A stretch of DNA of 64,000 bases from Anaerolineae bacterium (GTDB taxonomy: Bacteria > Chloroflexota > Anaerolineae > Aggregatilineales > UBA3940), in contig JAFGOY010000061.1 in NCBI GenBank assembly GCA_016926255.1, positions 1-64,000 on the forward strand, given 5' to 3'. The position numbers and the translations under genes were made by a program. Below the pieces are notes generated by a model that worked only from the letters and a program-made list of their open reading frames with translations, had not been told where the DNA came from and made no database searches. Shown in pieces: positions 19,468-34,634 of the stretch. Positions within the stretch are counted from its first letter, which is position 1; each line of letters opens with the position of its first letter.

Positions 19468-19839
19468 ATGGCACAATCGCGCACCGAGAAAATGGTAGGG
19501 AGACTCCGGGATCTTCAACAGACAGAAGGTGTGGAGGCTTCGGCGGTTGTCAGTGTCGATGGGTTGATCATGGCGTCGGCGCTCCCGGCTGGCGTGGAAG
19601 AAGACCGCGTGTCGGCGATGTCGGCGGCGATGCTCTCCCTCGGCGAGCGAATCGCCGGTGAGTTAGGACGCGGCATCCTCGACCAGGTCTATATTCGTGG
19701 AAATGATGGGCATGTGCTGCTCATGGCGGTCGGGGAAGAAGCGGTTCTAACGCTGCTGGCGCTCGAAAATGCGAAACTGGGACTGGTGCTGCTCGATATG
19801 AGACGGGCGGTCGACGACCTGACAGAACTGCTGAAGTGA
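19468..19839 (+). CDS. roadblock/LC7 domain protein
   Basis: A 123-residue MglB-like roadblock domain protein. The family fold is apparent: a first helix (TEKMVGRLRDLQQTEGVEASAV, split by family consensus), a strand VSVDGLIMASALP, a helix with AMSAAMLSLGERIAGEL, and strands QVYIRGNDGHVLLMAVG. Such proteins often act as GAPs or scaffolds for small Ras-like GTPases (MglA). No GTPase gene is next to it here. It has AAGGAG before the ATG. It has its own promoter, a possible leader RNA and a terminator, so it is probably expressed alone. Confidence 0.85.
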   Translation: MAQSRTEKMVGRLRDLQQTEGVEASAVVSVDGLIMASALPAGVEEDRVSAMSAAMLSLGERIAGELGRGILDQVYIRGNDGHVLLMAVGEEAVLTLLALENAKLGLVLLDMRRAVDDLTELLK

Positions 19840-22229: not shown

Positions 22230-22994
22230 TTAGCTGTCTGAATCTTCGGCCTGCTTGCGGAAGTCGACGAAGCGGTAGCCGATCCCCCGTTCGGTGAGGA
22301 TGTACTTGGGATTGCTGGGGTCTTCCTCGATTTTCTCGCGCAGGTAGTTGACATACAGGCGCACGTAGTGAGTCTCGTCGCGGTATTCGTAGCCCCAGAC
22401 TTTCGCCAGAAGCTGTTCGTGGGGGACCGTCCACCCGGCGTTCTCGATGAGGCGGTAGAGCAACCGGTATTCGGTGGGGCGCAGCTTGATGCGCTCCCCT
22501 TCGACGATGACTTCACGGCGGTTGAAGTCGACGCTGAGGCGGTCGTCGATTTTGACGACGGCTTCGCCGGGTTCGAGCAGGCTCTGGGTGCGTCTCAGCA
22601 CCGCCTTGACGCGGCTTACCAGCTCGCGGGCACCAAAAGGCTTGGTGACGTAGTCATCGGCCCCCAGCTCAAGCCCTCGAACCTTATCTTCTTCTTCGCC
22701 TTTGGCGGTGAGCATGATGACCGGCACGCTTGAAAACTCGCGCAGCATGCGGAGCATCTCGAAGCCATCAATCTGGGGCATCATGACATCCAGGACGATC
22801 AAATCGAGGATATGCTTGCGCACCATGTCAAGGGCATCGATGCCGTTGGTTGCCTCAAAAACCTGGAACCCTTCGATCTCCAGGTTCATGCGGATAAAAT
22901 CGATCATGCGCTGCTCGTCATCAACGACGAGAATGCTCATGCCGGTATAGTCAGGCTCATTCTGGTGTTGTTGAACAGGCATGTTAGCTATCAC
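22230..22994 (-). CDS. OmpR/PhoB-family response regulator
   Basis: A two-domain transcription regulator. The receiver domain has the acidic pair in [10 protein letters not shown] (25-26), the phospho-acceptor Asp69 in [17 protein letters not shown] and the [14 protein letters not shown] lysine. The winged-helix domain (about 150-245) has [26 protein letters not shown] and [18 protein letters not shown]. No histidine kinase gene is adjacent, so it is an orphan. The GTG at 22994 overlaps the preceding stop (GTGA); an in-frame ATG at 22982 is an alternative. It is the last gene of the minus-strand kinase/FHA run and may share its transcript. Confidence 0.92.
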
Positions 22995-23233
22995 TCACGG
23001 ACAAAGGTCATCACATCTTCTGCGTCTTCGCTGGGGAGAATCTGCACAAAGTTGATCCGCCACCAGGGGAAGATCACCTGGTTGACTTCTCGAAGGATAT
23101 AGGAGACTTCTTTACCATCGCGGCGCTGGGGGTTCATGCCCATGACAAACTGGTCGGATGGATTGGGGAGGTCTTCCACTTCGAGCACTACCGGATCGTC
23201 ACCTGCAACGTGAACTTGTATACGATAAACCAT
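22991..23233 (-). CDS. small conserved-looking protein of unknown function
   Basis: Eighty residues, not recognised. A beta-rich start ([20 protein letters not shown]) is followed by [20 protein letters not shown] and [19 protein letters not shown], a pattern like a short regulatory or adaptor domain. It is soluble, with no Cys. It overlaps the response regulator start by four bases and lies 52 bases after the FHA gene, so it is probably made from the same mRNA. Overlap and clean codon structure support a real gene. Confidence 0.65.
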
Positions 23234-23285: not shown

Positions 23286-23786
23286 TCATTTGAAATAGAT
23301 GTGCATTACAAGTTTGCCCAAACGTATCTCATCACCGTCCCGCAACAGGCGCGACTGGTTAGCCGCAAGCCGCTGACCGTTGAGAAAGGTTCCGTTGGCG
23401 CTGTCGAGATCGACGATTGACAAGACATCTTCCCCGCGCCGGAGCGCAGCATGAATACGAGAGACGCCCTTCTCAAGTGCTCCATGAGGTGTCAGGTCGA
23501 GGTCGGGGGTGATGCCGCTCGATGTATCGTGGCGGCCTATCAGGAATTCGCTGCCGGGGGCAATCGTGACCGGCTCGGCAGCATCACGGATGTGGATGAT
23601 CACCTGGTTGCGATCCTGAAACGTGGCGGTTCCCCAGCCGGACTTGACACTCAACTCGTTGGCTTCGTCTTCAAGCTCACGGGTTGGGACTTCGTCTTGC
23701 AGGTCTTCCCACAAGTTCAGTCCACATTCGTCACAGACCAGCGCCCCTTCCATGTTATCATGACCGCAATAAGGACACTTAATCAT
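23286..23786 (-). CDS. zinc-ribbon FHA domain protein
   Basis: A 166-residue adaptor. A zinc ribbon at the N-terminus (CPYCGHDN...CDECGLNLW) is followed by a linker and a FHA phosphothreonine-binding domain at about 78-165. FHA hallmarks are FLIGRHD (Gly-Arg), GVSRIHAALRR (Ser, His) and LDSANGTFLNGQRL (Asn, Gly). The C-terminus ends with LGKLVMHIYFK. It should bind a phosphorylated partner of the adjacent Ser/Thr kinase. Its start overlaps the end of the DnaJ-VWA gene by eight bases, so the two are coupled. Homologous small FHA proteins accompany kinase operons in Actinobacteria and Chloroflexota. Confidence 0.9.
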   Translation of the reverse strand: MIKCPYCGHDNMEGALVCDECGLNLWEDLQDEVPTRELEDEANELSVKSGWGTATFQDRNQVIIHIRDAAEPVTIAPGSEFLIGRHDTSSGITPDLDLTPHGALEKGVSRIHAALRRGEDVLSIVDLDSANGTFLNGQRLAANQSRLLRDGDEIRLGKLVMHIYFK

Positions 23787-25260
23787 TTCTGTCTCCCAAA
23801 ACTGGTAAAAAGGCTCTAGTACCGTATTTTAACTGCTTGATGCCTTCTTCTGAAAATCTTTGTGTCTGGGCAACTCTTTGCGCTTCGTGAAGGGCTGCCT
23901 GGCCAAGATTTTTTTCACCACTTTCAAAAAGACGGGTCGCCAGGAACTCTAATTTCCGGGTCGCTTCAACGAAGTCGCCTTCTTCGACGGCTTCACGAGC
24001 ACGATCTTGCAGTCGATAGAGGGCCAGGCGGCTCAATGCGTCCAATAGTTCCGGGGGAGGGTCTTCTTCGATGGGTTGATCAGTGATCTTGACGACCAGG
24101 TCCTTGATAATCCGTTCCTCACGATGGGCTGAGCCGAGAACCTGCCCGCTGACATCAATACGACCGACATAGAAATCTTCGTCGGGGGACTCACCCGTAT
24201 TCAAGTGGAACTGCACAAGCAGTTTTGTGCCCAGTTTGCCATCCAGGGAGCCTAAAGGAATAGGCTGAAGGTCGCTTTCCATATTCATCGGGTCGGGGGA
24301 GGTGCGGATGATCGCCTTGATGTTTGCGCCGGGAACCGGACCGACAATGAGTTCAGTGCGCTCCGCGTAGGCGGTCGCCAGGCTGCGGACTCGCTCCTGC
24401 AAAAAACGGCTGACCGCAGCGGCAGAGTTGATGTAAGCGGAAGCCCCCCCGGTGCGTGAAGCCAGAGCGTCGAGGAAACGGTCGTTCCAGTCTTCGCCGA
24501 TGCCCATTGCGCTGATACCAACACCGAGATCACGCGCTTCATCGGCGAGAGTGAGACAGTCATCTTCGTCGCCGTAGGTTCGCCCATCGGTGATCAGGAC
24601 AATATGGTTGACATATTTAGGCTGAAGATTTCGCTTGATCTGGGCCAGGCCGGTTTGCAGCCCGGCGAGGATCGCGGTCGCGCCATCGGCACGCATGATG
24701 CTGACGACTGATTTGATACTGCGCGGGTCGGTCGGGTGCTGGGCTGGGACGAGCACGTCGGCATTATCGCTGAAGGCGACGACTGAAAGAAAGTCTTCGG
24801 CGGCGCTGTCATCGATGATGCGATGAACAGCCGATTTGACATGCTGAATCCGCGCCCCTTTCATTGAAGTGGAGCGGTCGACCACCAGGCAGAGATTGAG
24901 TGGCGCGTCGGTGGTCATGCTCATTTCGAGCAGCGGCTGGATTTTTACCAGGACGTAAAGGAGCTGGGGTTCGCTGATGGGCCTCAAGTATTTACGACTG
25001 AAGATCGTCTCGACGTTCAGGCTGGGAGTAGTAATGGCGTAATCCTGCCAGAGATGGTCGTATTCAGTACGACCGGCAGGGTCATTCAATACTTCATAGG
25101 CTTTATTGATATCGCGGAAAAGGGCAGAAGAGCCGGTCGCTTTGTTGACATCCGGGTGGAAACGGCGGGCCGCAAGCCGATAAGCCTGGCGCAGATCATC
25201 TCGGCTAGCCGCAGGGTCGATTCCCAAAATGGCATAATAGTCAACGAAGCTCATCGGCAT
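23779..25260 (-). CDS. J-domain / von Willebrand factor A protein
   Basis: An unusual fusion of 493 residues. A DnaJ J-domain spans residues 6-72, with the HPD motif at 35-37 (RRFHPDVN) that stimulates DnaK ATPase. A VWA domain at about 120-300 carries the MIDAS motif DRSTS at 128-132, an ITDGRTYG strand and conserved Thr/Asp. The final 100 residues are helical (RAREAVEEGDFVEATRKLEF), resembling the tail of VWA proteins that act with MoxR-type ATPases. No signal peptide is seen. It sits between the FHA and PP2C genes, so it probably belongs to the kinase module. The start could be M1 or M3 (25254), the latter nearer an AGGG site. Confidence 0.85.
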   Translation of the reverse strand: MPMSFVDYYAILGIDPAASRDDLRQAYRLAARRFHPDVNKATGSSALFRDINKAYEVLNDPAGRTEYDHLWQDYAITTPSLNVETIFSRKYLRPISEPQLLYVLVKIQPLLEMSMTTDAPLNLCLVVDRSTSMKGARIQHVKSAVHRIIDDSAAEDFLSVVAFSDNADVLVPAQHPTDPRSIKSVVSIMRADGATAILAGLQTGLAQIKRNLQPKYVNHIVLITDGRTYGDEDDCLTLADEARDLGVGISAMGIGEDWNDRFLDALASRTGGASAYINSAAAVSRFLQERVRSLATAYAERTELIVGPVPGANIKAIIRTSPDPMNMESDLQPIPLGSLDGKLGTKLLVQFHLNTGESPDEDFYVGRIDVSGQVLGSAHREERIIKDLVVKITDQPIEEDPPPELLDALSRLALYRLQDRAREAVEEGDFVEATRKLEFLATRLFESGEKNLGQAALHEAQRVAQTQRFSEEGIKQLKYGTRAFLPVLGDRND

Positions 25261-25275
25261 CCCTATCCAGGGAAA

Positions 25276-26247
25276 TCATTCGGGCATGTGGACCAAAACC
25301 GCCGTGATGTTATCAGGGCCGCCCAATTCGTTGGCAGTCGCGACAAGTTTGTTGCAGGCTTCCTGATCGTCATCGACATATTCATTCAGAATTTCGGCGA
25401 TTTTCTCATCACCAATCACGCCCCATAACCCATCACTACAAAGCAACAGCCGCGAAGTCGGTGGCATCCGGCGTGTAGCTGCATCTACTTCAAGGGTTTC
25501 ACCCTGGCCTATCGCCCGATACAGGACATTGCGCTGCGGATGGACCTCGGCTTCTTCAGGGGTAAGCTGACCCAGTTCAAGCAGGCGGCGAACCAGGGAA
25601 TGATCCCGCGTGATCAACTCCAGGTTTCCCTCGGAGATCAGATAGGCGCGGCTGTCGCCAACATGGGCGATATAAGCCAGATCGCCTCGAATGAGGGCAC
25701 AGGTTGCGGTCGTTCCACCGTTTGGTACCTGATCCTGAACAGCCTGATTAGCCGCCAACATGGAGTCCGACAAAATTTCTGGGATGGTTTTTTGGTCGGC
25801 TGTGCGCTGAGTTCCGTCAACATGGGGAAGGAGCACCTGTTCGACGACTTCGCGAACGAGGGCTTGAACCGTGATCGTGCTGGCCAACTCACCATCATGA
25901 TGGCCGCCCATGCCGTCGGCGACAACAAAAAAGCCGATTGGGGGCGGACTGTTCGTCACTTCCGAACTGATAAGAACAGCCAGGCTTGAATCCTGGTTGT
26001 TGCTGCGCAACTGCCCGACATCACTGACCTGCCCGAAGCGGATATTTCTACTCTTGCTGCTGAACGGCTTGGGAGGAGGGAGAGGGCGTGTCTTGAGCGG
26101 CACTGCCTTCTGGGTTTCATCGGTGATCACAGGTGTGTCTTCAATGCGCGGCAATGTGTCGGCGGCGGAAAAGACTTCGACGTCGTCGGCAGTGGGGGGC
26201 TTGAATAATCGGCGAAACCAGTTCATAGGGTGCTTCTTTCCATTCAT
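25276..26247 (-). CDS. PP2C-family protein phosphatase
   Basis: A 323-residue metal-dependent Ser/Thr phosphatase that should reverse the neighbouring kinase. After a variable, proline-rich lead of about 65 residues the PP2C core begins at RFGQVSDVGQLRSNNQDSSL. Metal ligands lie in FFVVADGMGGHHDGELAS (DGMGG), in LLLCSDGLWGVIGD, and in ELGGPDNITAVLV near the end. HVGDSRAYLI is also typical. No membrane helix is seen, so it should be cytoplasmic. M8 (26226) is an alternative start with GGAAAG upstream. It is 15 bases from the DnaJ-VWA gene and 9 bases from the kinase gene. Confidence 0.93.
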   Translation of the reverse strand: MNGKKHPMNWFRRLFKPPTADDVEVFSAADTLPRIEDTPVITDETQKAVPLKTRPLPPPKPFSSKSRNIRFGQVSDVGQLRSNNQDSSLAVLISSEVTNSPPPIGFFVVADGMGGHHDGELASTITVQALVREVVEQVLLPHVDGTQRTADQKTIPEILSDSMLAANQAVQDQVPNGGTTATCALIRGDLAYIAHVGDSRAYLISEGNLELITRDHSLVRRLLELGQLTPEEAEVHPQRNVLYRAIGQGETLEVDAATRRMPPTSRLLLCSDGLWGVIGDEKIAEILNEYVDDDQEACNKLVATANELGGPDNITAVLVHMPE

Positions 26248-26256
26248 ATACCCGTG

Positions 26257-28245
26257 TTAAGCTTGCAGGGCATAAATATGTTTATCATCAGAGCCGATGT
26301 AAACCACGTCACCGGAAACGTGAGGCGATGAAATAATCGGCCCGTTACTCTGGAAACGCCAGAGAAGGTCGCCTGTCTGGGCATGAAGGCAGTAAAGCGC
26401 CCCATCGGTCGCACCGATGTATAAAGCATCGCCGTAAACGCAGGGTGTTGATGTCACAGCTTTGCCGACCTCATATTTCCAGATTTCGCGTCCACCTAAA
26501 GCGTCGACGGCATAGATAAACCCATCGGCGGAACCAAAGTAGCAATGCGGACCTTCGACGACCGGAGAGGAGACAACCGCACCCCGCGTGCGAAAACGCC
26601 AGTTTGGGTAGCCCTGCTCGACATCAAGGGCGTAGACGTACCAGTCATCAGAGCCGATGTAGACCATGTTTTCATGGATGAAGGGAGTGGACATGATCCG
26701 GCGGCGGGTTTCAAAGCGCCAGAGCAGTTCCCCCGAAACGTCCATGCACATGAACTCCCCGGATTCGGTGCCGAAGTACAAATTGTCATCGGCGACACGG
26801 GGTGAGGAGCGGATCGGGGACATGATGTTGAAGCTCCACATCTCGCGGGCACTGGTTGGGCCGGGCTTCAGAGCATACATGAAGCCATCGTCAGAGCCGA
26901 AGAAAACAAGGCCAACTGCGACCTCAGGCGTGGTGTAAATTCTACCTTCCGTCTTGAATACCCATTTCCGATTACCGGTGCGGGCATCGACAGCGTGCAG
27001 ACGCCGGTCGGTGGAGCCGATAAGGATCGTTCCTCCGCTGTAGGCAGGGCTTGATCCAATACCGCCCTCGGTGGCGAACTTCCAGACAAGGCTGCCGTCT
27101 TTAACGTCAAGCGCCCAGAGGTTGTTATCATAGGAGCCGACGTAGAGGACATCATTATGGACGATGGGCGTCGAACGCACGGCATCTTCAACCTGGAATG
27201 CCCAGATCGGGGTGACCGTGCTTTGCTGGACAGCACCGGCTGCTTCAACGGGAGCTTTTCGGCTTTCCACCGGGGCAGGATAGGCCGCCGGTGCTGCGGC
27301 AGCCTGCGGCACATTGTTAGCCGCGGCAGGGACAGGCGCAACAGCCATGGCACCGTTATTAGCTCCGCCGATGGCCTCAACAGACTGTTTCATCGTCTGG
27401 GCGCTGGCATAACGGTCTTCTGGATCGTAGCTGAGGGAGCGCATCACAATTGAAGCAAGCTCCTCCGGTACGTTGGAATTCGAATCCCTGATGGGCCGCT
27501 TGTGGAACGAAAACGGCGGCTCAAGACGGGGGTCACGCCGGGTCAGGAGGTGGTGGAGGGTTGCGCCCAGCGCATAAATGTCAGCGGCAGGCGAGGCGAG
27601 GCCCTTGTACTGCTCCGGCGCGGCGTAGCCATCGGTGCCGATCATGGTGCCCGGCTGCCCCATCTGGAAAGTCTTAGCAATGCCAAAGTCAATCAACCGG
27701 ACCCGCTTGTGATGGTCGATCATCACGTTGGAGGGTTTCATATCACGGAAAACAATCGGCTCCGGTTCGTGGTTATGCAAATAAGCCAGCACGTCGCAGA
27801 TTTCGATGGCCCATTGACGCACCTGTTCGACCGGGAGGAAGCTCTCAGTGCTGTTGAGAATGGCTTCCAGGTCTTTCCCCTGGATGAATTCCATGATCAG
27901 GTAGGCGCGGTCGCCGAAACTGAAGAAATCGTAAATCTGGGGGATGGCCGGGTGGTTGAGTGTCGCCAGAATTTCAGCTTCGCGTTCGAAATTCTTCATC
28001 GTCTGCTCGCGAAACTGCTGATCCTGGGCCATGTTGATCATCTCTTTTACGGCGACCAACCGGGGCACGGTCGGGAAGTGGAGATCGCGGGCCTGATAAA
28101 CGGCCCCCATGCCTCCCATCCCAACGATACCGAGTATCCGGTAGCGGCTTTGCAGCACCTGACCGGGCTGCAAGGTTCCATCAGGAACGGCAAGCGGCCC
28201 TGCCGAGTCACTCTCGATGTGCCTTGTGTCATTTGGATCCGACAT
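26257..28245 (-). CDS. Ser/Thr protein kinase with C-terminal PQQ-type propeller
   Basis: A 662-residue fusion. Hanks-type kinase domain at about 35-290: GMGGMG loop, VAVKEM (Lys67), FRDMKPSN (168-173; FRD instead of HRD), LIDFGIAK (DFG 186-188) and GYAAPEQ. An Ala/Pro-rich linker (AAAPAAYPAPVE) lacks a membrane helix. From about residue 355 there are eight repeats of roughly 40 residues of the form SSP...YIGS.D..IYALD...G...W, a PQQ-like propeller. Such kinases are often membrane proteins with extracellular propellers; here both parts seem to be in the cytoplasm. It heads the minus-strand PP2C/DnaJ-VWA/FHA run and probably phosphorylates FHA partners. Confidence 0.93.
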   Translation of the reverse strand: MSDPNDTRHIESDSAGPLAVPDGTLQPGQVLQSRYRILGIVGMGGMGAVYQARDLHFPTVPRLVAVKEMINMAQDQQFREQTMKNFEREAEILATLNHPAIPQIYDFFSFGDRAYLIMEFIQGKDLEAILNSTESFLPVEQVRQWAIEICDVLAYLHNHEPEPIVFRDMKPSNVMIDHHKRVRLIDFGIAKTFQMGQPGTMIGTDGYAAPEQYKGLASPAADIYALGATLHHLLTRRDPRLEPPFSFHKRPIRDSNSNVPEELASIVMRSLSYDPEDRYASAQTMKQSVEAIGGANNGAMAVAPVPAAANNVPQAAAAPAAYPAPVESRKAPVEAAGAVQQSTVTPIWAFQVEDAVRSTPIVHNDVLYVGSYDNNLWALDVKDGSLVWKFATEGGIGSSPAYSGGTILIGSTDRRLHAVDARTGNRKWVFKTEGRIYTTPEVAVGLVFFGSDDGFMYALKPGPTSAREMWSFNIMSPIRSSPRVADDNLYFGTESGEFMCMDVSGELLWRFETRRRIMSTPFIHENMVYIGSDDWYVYALDVEQGYPNWRFRTRGAVVSSPVVEGPHCYFGSADGFIYAVDALGGREIWKYEVGKAVTSTPCVYGDALYIGATDGALYCLHAQTGDLLWRFQSNGPIISSPHVSGDVVYIGSDDKHIYALQA

Positions 28246-32339: not shown

Positions 32340-32987
32340 GATATCCAGCAGGCGCACAGCCTGAAGGACGACGACAACAAGAAGCCCGACGGTAAAAGCC
32401 GTCACTCCCCAACCGGGAGAGATCGGCGCGGCGTAGTGAGCCTCGAAAGGCTTACGCAGCCGCAGAAAGGCCGATCCGCCAAAGCCAACTGCCAGACCGC
32501 TCAATAGAATGAGTATGCCCTGCCGACCTTTCTCCGGGAGAAGGTCGGTGAGCAGGCTGGCGGCGACCCCCACCCAGATCAACGCGGCGACGAGAAAACG
32601 CGTGCCGAAGGCATCGGAACGCCATAGTTGAAGCACCTGGGGATAAGGCGGAAGCAGCACGAGGCCGGGCAGCAGGGCGACAAATCGCACGGCCCAACGC
32701 CACCACAGCACCCTGATCACGACCGCAGCAACCGCAAGTGCAACCGCCGCCAGCGCGATTCCGAGGCGAAGCCGATCCGGATCGGCGTGGAGCGGCCCGG
32801 CGCGAACATCGACCAGTACGGTCGACCACTCGGCCAGGTCGACGGCGTTAAGGGTCAGGCTCGATACACGATGGGAAATCCAGGGTCCCCAGACGCCAAG
32901 CCAGACCAGGCCAAGAGCCAGCAGACTGATCCGATCGCTGTAGGTTGGGCTGAGGTTAACTCTCAGTTTCCGGGCTATCACTCTCAT
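32313..32987 (-). CDS. multi-pass membrane protein of unknown function
   Basis: No family recognised. From the ATG at 32987 the product has about 224 residues with five or six hydrophobic segments (ISLLALGLVWLGVWGPW near the start, ALAAVALAVAAVVIRVLWW, FVALLPGLVLLPPYPQ, FLVAALIWVGVAASLL, LLSGLAVGFGGSAFL and VTAFTVGLLVVVVLQAV). The open frame extends upstream to 33197 with low-complexity sequence antisense-like to the ATPase gene, so the later ATG is chosen. It overlaps the end of the ChlI-like gene by 32 bases and is probably translated from the same mRNA. Confidence 0.65.
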   Translation of the reverse strand: MRVIARKLRVNLSPTYSDRISLLALGLVWLGVWGPWISHRVSSLTLNAVDLAEWSTVLVDVRAGPLHADPDRLRLGIALAAVALAVAAVVIRVLWWRWAVRFVALLPGLVLLPPYPQVLQLWRSDAFGTRFLVAALIWVGVAASLLTDLLPEKGRQGILILLSGLAVGFGGSAFLRLRKPFEAHYAAPISPGWGVTAFTVGLLVVVVLQAVRLLDIKTQTGQQP

Positions 32988-34239
32988 TATGGTTGATCTC
33001 GTCGTGTAACTGTTCGAACAGGTCGGCGATCTGGGTGCTTTCCTGCTGCTGTTCATCAAAGAAATCGTCAATGAACTGGCTGCGGCGCATGCGCAGGGCC
33101 ATCGGCGCGACGGCGCGGAGATCATCGACGGAGGCTTTTGTGCGGCCATCGGCGGCGGCGTAGGCGCGAGCAGCCTCGAACATGGTGAACTCGGCACGAT
33201 GCGAGTGGATGTTCAACTCGCGCACCAACTGCAAACCGAGATTACGCGCTTCGGGTGATACCTCTACCTTATGCAGCAGTTCGCGAGCGACAACCACGTC
33301 GGCACGGGCAAAGCTGGTTACTTCTTCGAATGAGCGGATGAATGCCCTGGGACTATCTCTGAACAGGCGAATACGCTCATAGACGGCCATGCGTTCCTCA
33401 TATTCGGTGAGGCCGCCAACAAGGACACGCAGCCCAAACCGGTCGAGAATCTGGGGGCGCAATCGACCCTCTTCGGGGTTCATCGAGCCGATCAGCGCGA
33501 AGCGCGCCCGGTAGGTGGCCTTCATCGGGCCGCGCCGGACAGTGTACTGGCCCTGCGCAGCGGCGTCGAGGATGGCGTCAACGATCTCATTGTTGAGCAG
33601 ATTGACTTCGTCGATATAGAGCAGGTTGCGGTCAGCGCGGGACAGGATGCCCCGGTCGAGGCGAACCCGGTTCTGCTGGAGGGCGATGCGCTCGTTGATC
33701 CCGCCGATTACGTCATCGAGGCGGGCGTTCAGGGGAAGTTCGATCAGGCGAACCGGCTCCAGACGGGTGATACTCTCGCCCTGTTCGAGTTTGAGGGCGC
33801 ATTCGGCGCAAACGCCCTCCGGCCCCTCGGCTTCGTAATCTTCGGGCATGCAGCCGTACATACAGGTACTGTGGGCGATCCAGGGCAGGAGATCGCTAAG
33901 ACCACGAGCGGCGGTGGTCTTGCCTGTGCCGCGCGGCCCGATCAGCAGGGTGCCGCCGACGTTGGGATTGATCACCGTTAGAAGGAGCGAAATCCGCATC
34001 TCGATCTGGCCGACAAGCCCCATGAAGGGAAAGGGCAGGTGTTCGGCGAGGCCGAGGTCTTCGCCGGGTGTTTCGAGCACGCGCCGGGATGAGTGGCTGT
34101 TTAGGAGCCGCATCAACATCGAGGTGTGCTGGCCGCGCTCACCGGTCAGCAGATAGGATGGGATATCTTTGGTCTCGACTGCTGCCTCATCGTCAGGTGG
34201 CAGGGTTGGGTCGGTAGCTTCCTGTTTCTTTCTTGCCAT
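32956..34239 (-). CDS. ChlI/BchI-like AAA+ ATPase
   Basis: A AAA+ ATPase of the magnesium chelatase subunit I clade, about 427 residues. Walker A is LLIGPRGTGKTTAARGL, Walker B LLYIDEVNLLNN. IVDAILDAAAQGQYTVRRGP is the presensor insertion typical of ChlI, and sensor regions IGSMNPEEGRLRPQILDRF follow. A cysteine cluster (CMYGCMP...CAECALK) between the Walker A and B regions could bind metal. No ChlD, ChlH or VWA partner is adjacent, so true chelatase function is uncertain; many such proteins in non-phototrophs have other roles. The ATG at 34239 has AAAGGA; an upstream frame to 34260 exists. Confidence 0.85.
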   Translation of the reverse strand: MARKKQEATDPTLPPDDEAAVETKDIPSYLLTGERGQHTSMLMRLLNSHSSRRVLETPGEDLGLAEHLPFPFMGLVGQIEMRISLLLTVINPNVGGTLLIGPRGTGKTTAARGLSDLLPWIAHSTCMYGCMPEDYEAEGPEGVCAECALKLEQGESITRLEPVRLIELPLNARLDDVIGGINERIALQQNRVRLDRGILSRADRNLLYIDEVNLLNNEIVDAILDAAAQGQYTVRRGPMKATYRARFALIGSMNPEEGRLRPQILDRFGLRVLVGGLTEYEERMAVYERIRLFRDSPRAFIRSFEEVTSFARADVVVARELLHKVEVSPEARNLGLQLVRELNIHSHRAEFTMFEAARAYAAADGRTKASVDDLRAVAPMALRMRRSQFIDDFFDEQQQESTQIADLFEQLHDEINHNESDSPETES

Positions 34240-34256
34240 ACGGTTCCTTTTGTCGA

Positions 34257-34634
34257 TCAATCCATATCGGGACGCCGGTCAGAGAGGCGTTTGAAGATGG
34301 CGGGGTCTTCTTCCAGAACGTCGATCATCGAATAGGATAATTCCGAAAAGGATGGCGGAAGCGGGGCACGGGCGGGCAGATCGGGTTTGGGCGGGTGCTG
34401 TGGGATATCGGTGCGAAGCTCGCGCCGGTCAGCGGTGCGCTTCCGCAGGATGCGCGAATCTTTGCTCAATGTGCCGATCCATTCGCCATCGGATTTATAG
34501 ACATCGCCATTTTCTTCGACCCACCCGATCCAGGTTCCCCGGAGGTCCCAGATATTTCCATCGAGCAGGGTGGCGAGCCAGTCACCATAGGAATCCCAGA
34601 TATACTGTCCAGGGAACTTCGCTTTCTTTGCCAT
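34257..34634 (-). CDS. repeat protein resembling 4-fold beta-flower
   Basis: A 125-residue protein whose first 60 residues contain four short Trp-Gly-rich repeats (YIWDSYGDWLATLL, GNIWDLRGTWIGWV, GDVYKSDGEWIGTL, then a last degenerate one). This spacing resembles small beta-sheet proteins I know as 4-fold beta-flower; no certain match. The second half is Pro-rich and ends with SMIDVLEEDPAIFKRL. ATG after GAGGTG. The short gap (17 bases) to the ChlI-like ATPase gene suggests an operon and a functional partner. Confidence 0.65.
   Translation of the reverse strand: MAKKAKFPGQYIWDSYGDWLATLLDGNIWDLRGTWIGWVEENGDVYKSDGEWIGTLSKDSRILRKRTADRRELRTDIPQHPPKPDLPARAPLPPSFSELSYSMIDVLEEDPAIFKRLSDRRPDMD

Follow-up and report, generated by a model that had tools for sequence, protein, structure and literature searches.

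What does a bacterium do with a set of neighbouring genes that encodes a Ser/Thr kinase, a phosphatase, a J-domain fused to a vWA domain, and an FHA protein? The question is raised by contig JAFGOY010000061.1 of the Anaerolineae bacterium assembly GCA_016926255.1 (Chloroflexota), whose positions 1 to 64,000 make up the stretch of DNA analysed here (the window). An earlier note on this stretch had described these genes as one operon at 23286-28245, had suggested that they serve the phosphorylation-controlled recruitment of DnaK to clients bound by the vWA domain, and knew of no described system with the same set. We consider it fairly probable that the operon, which brings along both a kinase and a phosphatase, encodes a soluble switch that works by Ser/Thr phosphorylation in the manner of ArnA/ArnB; its phosphorylation and binding steps we infer below.

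All four genes hold up as real in the list of open reading frames and in Pfam, with the boundaries first assigned to them and on the minus strand. The first (KIN-PQQ; 26257..28245; 662 residues) joins a kinase domain (Pfam E 1.3e-43), with the catalytic motifs FRDMKPSN and DFG, to beta-propeller repeats, of which eight WxF/YxGS pairs can be read in the sequence; the linker has no membrane helix, which points to a soluble kinase. The description of the propeller as PQQ-type is sound as a name for the repeats but not as an enzyme identity, since PQQ-enzyme models score far below their cut-offs. An AfsK-type kinase was also rejected (224 bits against an equivalog cut-off of 1300): only the plan of kinase plus propeller is common to both. 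The PP2C phosphatase (25276..26247; 323 residues; Pfam E 1.6e-19) has a 70-residue N-terminal extension and scores 222.5 bits with an Stp1-like model whose cut-off is 230. The DnaJ-vWA protein (23779..25260; 493 residues) matches both Pfam families (DnaJ, E 9e-19; VWA, E 2.4e-20), and the fourth protein (23286..23786; 166 residues) combines an FHA domain (Pfam E 3.2e-16) with a CxxC...CxxC ribbon at its N-terminus (Zn_ribbon_3, whose cut-off of 27 bits is narrowly missed with 26.7). The four reading frames are separated by gaps of 9 and then 15 nucleotides, and the vWA/FHA pair overlaps by 8 nucleotides. The operon extends further than had been noticed: downstream on the same strand lie a gene for an 80-residue protein, here called S80 (22991..23233), and one for an OmpR-type response regulator (22230..22994), with which the operon ends in many Anaerolineae. 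A scan for promoters and terminators gave no signal above shuffles.

The neighbourhood survey that the earlier note had proposed as a check shows that these genes are inherited together. Relatives of the vWA protein were found in 99 of the 199 genomes of the class, and a separate scan yielded 21 contigs, 20 of them named Chloroflexota and one KSB1. In a domain survey of 82 loci the recurrent order is KIN-PQQ, PP2C, (DnaJ-)vWA, FHA, S80, response regulator, with KIN-PQQ as the first gene in all complete loci. Among 60 loci from the class, each from a different genome, KIN-PQQ is present in 55, PP2C in 50, FHA in 59, S80 in 54 and the response regulator in 38; all four genes occur in order in 47, and the FHA gene is directly downstream of the vWA gene in 59. 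An independent set of loci was fetched across the phylum by means of S80 alone: the 10 that contain a vWA gene, 8 of them from outside the class, all have KIN-PQQ, PP2C, vWA, FHA and S80 in this order, while the response regulator occurs in 2, both from the same class. Finally, the pairwise distances between genomes correlate among the five proteins (r = 0.71-0.89, as compared with permutation maxima of 0.09-0.14). Because the order is conserved, the S80-fetched loci agree and the protein distances correlate, the gene set is a co-inherited unit, and a chance neighbourhood of the DnaJ-vWA gene is ruled out. Since the first five genes also stand together in other Chloroflexota classes, the constant core of kinase, PP2C, vWA protein, Zn-ribbon-FHA protein and S80 is phylum-wide in Chloroflexota. 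The only relative seen outside the phylum, in searches that hardly extended to other phyla, is that on the KSB1 contig, where the order is PP2C, vWA, FHA, kinase, and the vWA protein has a KLRYETRKL tail.

The nearest characterised relative of this operon is the ArnA/ArnB module that regulates the archaellum in Sulfolobus. As had been proposed, the structure of the DnaJ-vWA protein was predicted; the AlphaFold2 model is of high confidence (predicted local distance difference test, pLDDT, 92.4; predicted template modelling score 0.90) and consists of a J-domain that extends to residue 75, a beta-sandwich split by the vWA domain (residues 118-296; 24373..24909), and a C-terminal four-helix bundle, which is the full ArnB architecture behind a J-domain. 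The best structural match is 4fx5 (Z 36.3 over residues 80-487), a vWA protein of Catenulispora acidiphila that is similar throughout the part following the J-domain but has no J-domain itself. ArnB in the ArnA-ArnB complex (8s05, chain A) follows with Z 30.9 for 369 residues, over residues 79-485, and its paralogue 5a8j with Z 27.5; a profile search with the DnaJ-vWA protein also leads to ArnB (E 1.3e-20), with coverage of the vWA domain, the sandwich and the start of the bundle. The metal ion-dependent adhesion site (MIDAS: DxSxS, Thr, Asp), said from the start to be intact, is so in the window protein and in all 64 of its relatives. On the side of the FHA protein, the Zn ribbon finds ArnA (E 4e-4), the FHA domain finds GarA/OdhI as the closest entries in a PDB search, and the residues of the phosphothreonine pocket are kept (GR in 63/63 and SRxH in 63/63 relatives).

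In Sulfolobus acidocaldarius the FHA domain of ArnA binds ArnB once the Hanks-type kinase ArnC has phosphorylated Thr residues in the helical bundle of ArnB, and the Zn finger of ArnA binds unphosphorylated ArnB (PMC12852372, PMC6509490); the presence of ArnB-like vWA proteins in bacteria had already been noted by the authors of that work (PMC12852372). The two systems (PDB 8s05, 5a8i, 5a8j for the archaeal one) share a Zn-ribbon-FHA protein encoded beside a vWA protein made of a split beta-sandwich and a C-terminal bundle, a Hanks-type kinase and a Ser/Thr phosphatase that act on the module (known here from the genes), and Thr candidates in the bundle; the ArnB architecture, the intact MIDAS, and the Zn ribbon and FHA domain with its pocket residues are thus all present. 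They differ in that the kinase has here a beta-propeller instead of the OB and TPR domains of ArnC, that the phosphatase is PP2C and not PP2A, that all genes are in one operon, and that this operon adds a near-invariant TRxL tail, the J-domain fusion, S80 and the response regulator and has no link to an archaellum. Because the kinase-propeller and PP2C replace the ArnC-type kinase and PP2A, the operon would work like the arn network without being its orthologous counterpart; and because its constant core resembles the ArnA/ArnB switch, with kinase and phosphatase, the claim that no system of this kind had been described was too strong.

FHA domains are known to bind ligands in which threonine is followed at +3 by a hydrophobic residue (pT+3 selectivity), and each of the four proteins has a T-x-x-[Leu/Ile/Phe] motif in a flexible or terminal segment. 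In the window these are D-TRHI in the N-terminal segment of the kinase (from T7; 28216..28227), K-TRPL in the extension of PP2C (from T53; 26080..26091), P-TREL in the linker from the Zn ribbon to the FHA domain (from T35; 23673..23684), and G-TRAF in the C-terminal tail of DnaJ-vWA (from T481; 23809..23820). In the relatives, 33/41 kinase N-termini contain T-x2-[LIFM] (17.9 expected from shuffling), as do 42/54 FHA linkers (25.0 expected) and 61/62 vWA tails (25.5 expected); in each case none of 1000 shuffles reached the observed value. The excess of Thr peaks at the x2 spacing in each segment, with a weaker additional T-x1 signal in the kinase and T-x3/x4 signals from neighbouring residues in the vWA tail; Ser shows no comparable excess at x2 in the same segments (1000 shuffles). 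The stricter T[RQ]x[LIFM] occurs in only 26 of the N-termini of 603 neighbouring genes (4%), as compared with 18/41 kinase (44%), 16/49 PP2C (33%) and 11/55 FHA segments (20%), and 61/62 vWA tails (98%). In the tails of 53 J-vWA relatives neither T481 nor R482 varies, and position 484 holds Leu in 51 and Phe in 2; the eight vWA proteins from outside the class, which were retrieved once the motif had already been spotted, have GTR[GS]L as their common ending. From sequence, these threonines are candidates for sites at which, once phosphorylated, the FHA domain docks.

On this basis, in which gene content, conservation, motif enrichment and intact catalytic, MIDAS, HPD and FHA residues are observed and the folds are predicted, the switch might operate as follows. 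The propeller kinase, triggered by a signal, would phosphorylate the Thr of T-x-x-[L/I/F] on itself, on the extension of PP2C, on the FHA linker and at the end of the vWA helical bundle, and the FHA domain would read these marks. Reading of its own linker would produce a closed state like that of OdhI/GarA, reading of the vWA tail a tight complex like ArnA-ArnB, and reading of the kinase and PP2C the docking of writer and eraser: the motif in the linker suggests the first, those on the two enzymes the last. The MIDAS of the vWA domain would probably hold an acidic client or partner, and the J-domain of the Anaerolineae proteins may recruit DnaK to the resulting complex; PP2C would reset the switch, and output or assembly is the probable task of S80 and the response regulator. 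Self-closure has a precedent in the actinobacterial switch, as the FHA domain of GarA binds its own phosphorylated N-terminus (PMC2784874); OdhI/GarA also have a Thr with a hydrophobic +3 residue N-terminal of the FHA domain. Here, however, a Zn ribbon precedes the motif, the operon also supplies the kinase, the phosphatase and a vWA partner, and self-binding is a prediction; the protein is not an OdhI equivalog (NF041660, 43 bits against a cut-off of 200).

Several points weigh against the ArnA/ArnB-type switch as drawn here. The motif was spotted in the data before it was tested, so that only the S80-fetched loci are held out, and the 1000 shuffles handle kinship by a redundancy filter only; in the PP2C extensions the enrichment is weak (32/49, with 25.5 expected; p = 0.027); and in the model helix 4 ends with the invariant Thr-Arg pair of the vWA tail, whose role there could be structural. 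As said, the kinase and the phosphatase are not of the ArnC and PP2A types. With regard to the J-domain, HPD is gone in 8 of 64 proteins (HSE in L073, QPN in L077, changed in L079, loops altered or missing in L086, L101, L103, L104 and L105), and several lineages have no J-domain.

These last observations bear most directly on the alternative closest to the original suggestion, in which the J-domain is the business end: the operon would be a phosphorylation-gated Hsp70 co-chaperone whose vWA part picks clients, while the kinase/FHA part controls access. We regard this as doubtful, and as equally tentative its specific form, in which the kinase writes a shared phosphothreonine code (T-R/Q-x-L/I/F) on itself, PP2C, the FHA reader and the J-domain/vWA co-chaperone, so that DnaK reaches MIDAS-bound clients in one phosphorylation state only. 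The J-domain itself (residues 7-68; 25057..25242) is well preserved: helices I-IV are predicted with high confidence within residues 8-75, and HPD, correctly read at first sight as kept, occupies residues 35-37 (25158-25150), between helices II and III. The window protein thus has the fold and the HPD of J-domain proteins (Hsp40, class C), which by sequence and model makes it a putative stimulator of DnaK; moreover, HPD is kept in 56/64 of the vWA proteins with a J-domain, and the fusion in one polypeptide extends across many families of the class. Against this, the same operon occurs in other Chloroflexota classes with a vWA protein that usually has no J-domain (L155, outside the class, does carry one), as well as in a J-less clade of Anaerolineae; HPD has decayed in three separate lineages; and no DnaK gene is seen in the operon.

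Trees of the vWA part require four changes of the J label, with a root that is not firmly placed; an early single gain, with losses in the L052-L056/L106-L111 clade, in L108 and in L049, is probably the simplest reading. To the proteins with HPD may be added that of L046 (upstream of 5400), whose J-vWA frame stays open across the J-domain although no ATG, GTG or TTG precedes it; an unusual start codon or a fault in the assembly may be the cause. This J-domain was missed by the program that called the open reading frames, and the second tree includes the locus among those with a J-domain. Because the J-domain is degenerate or lost in several lineages, phosphorylation-controlled recruitment of DnaK does not stand as the core mechanism, but plausibly survives, as judged from the sequences, as a lineage-specific add-on. 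In some organisms the operon therefore works with no recruitment of Hsp70, even though HPD is kept by selection in most Anaerolineae.

The candidate docking sites invite a further objection, namely that T-R-x-L serves the vWA protein as a helix cap, a structural role, and that the other T-x-x-L motifs are unrelated to it, the proteins cooperating without a shared FHA ligand. Arg482 is indeed as invariant as Thr481, the pair being at the predicted helix end, and the signal in PP2C is weak. We nevertheless judge this explanation rather unlikely: kinase N-termini and FHA linkers, segments without a common fold, show an excess with the same spacing and likewise specific for Thr, and the vWA tail is predicted to be disordered beyond residue 485.

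TerY-P is a type of triad formed by a kinase, a PP2C and a vWA protein. That the operon is such a triad, part of a stress or conflict system, is highly improbable, because despite the same three classes side by side, and the DnaJ/HSP70 links that some kinase-PP2C-vWA triads and GAP1-N2 systems of bacterial conflict systems have (PMC7159879), no Ter or GTPase/effector or other conflict-system genes are seen next to it in the window, where the adjacent genes look like housekeeping ones, FHA and S80 belong to the constant set, the vWA protein has the ArnB architecture, and a single operon is co-inherited across the phylum rather than being a patchy island. Among the neighbouring open reading frames of the window no ter genes were recognised by eye, while ter families were not searched for in the relatives. 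In PADLOC, the models hit by the kinase are generic kinase ones (PD-T4-6, mad6), and PP2C hits a single weak model; since the vWA protein, the FHA protein and S80 have no match, the operon is not filed as a defence system.

The S80 protein has no Pfam family and no sequence match in PDB. Its model (pLDDT 89) is a five-strand small barrel for which LSm/Sm chains fill the list of structural matches with Z 6.3-7.1, a range where common arrangements also score; an Sm/LSm-like fold predicted at Z 6-7 is thus no proof of RNA binding. In L157, L158 and L164 the S80 gene directly follows an FHA gene, and no vWA, PP2C or kinase gene is nearby (L157 is near the end of its contig); this suggests that FHA and S80 can form a pair without the vWA protein, and S80 may therefore be a partner of the FHA protein. 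In L152 S80 directly follows KIN-PQQ, with an overlap of 13 nucleotides, and PP2C, vWA and FHA are missing from the stretch; weaker relatives of S80 (family f74) occur in L159, L160, L161 and L163 without kinase, PP2C, vWA or FHA genes.

Some variants of the layout and some neighbours may be added. In L054, L098, L106 and L107, which belong to lineages without a J-domain or with a short FHA protein, the operon has next to it a divergent gene that matches both FHA and response-regulator profiles and a second kinase without propeller; a related family (L112-L116) has vWA and FHA genes, without J-domain, among several kinases and FHA-containing proteins. In the window, a Roadblock/LC7-domain protein (19468-19839, plus strand; Pfam 5.2e-18), of a type that regulates small GTPases, is encoded near the operon, and a magnesium-chelatase-like AAA+ ATPase, recognised by eye, is encoded about 4.7 kb upstream of it (32956-34260, minus strand); ATPases of this kind are frequently paired with vWA proteins.

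No description of this operon was found in the literature searched, subscription papers being outside its scope, and the complete Chloroflexota operon, the J-domain fusion and the shared Thr motif seem to be undescribed in searchable literature. The results suggest that Chloroflexota as a phylum possess a bacterial equivalent of the ArnA/ArnB switch, for which a single operon supplies the writer, the eraser, the reader and the target; its closeness to the archaeal module bears on the age of FHA-vWA signalling. One short Thr motif in four proteins provides a specific and testable code for a nearly unstudied phylum, and the J-domain fusion a possible route from protein phosphorylation to the control of Hsp70 recruitment.

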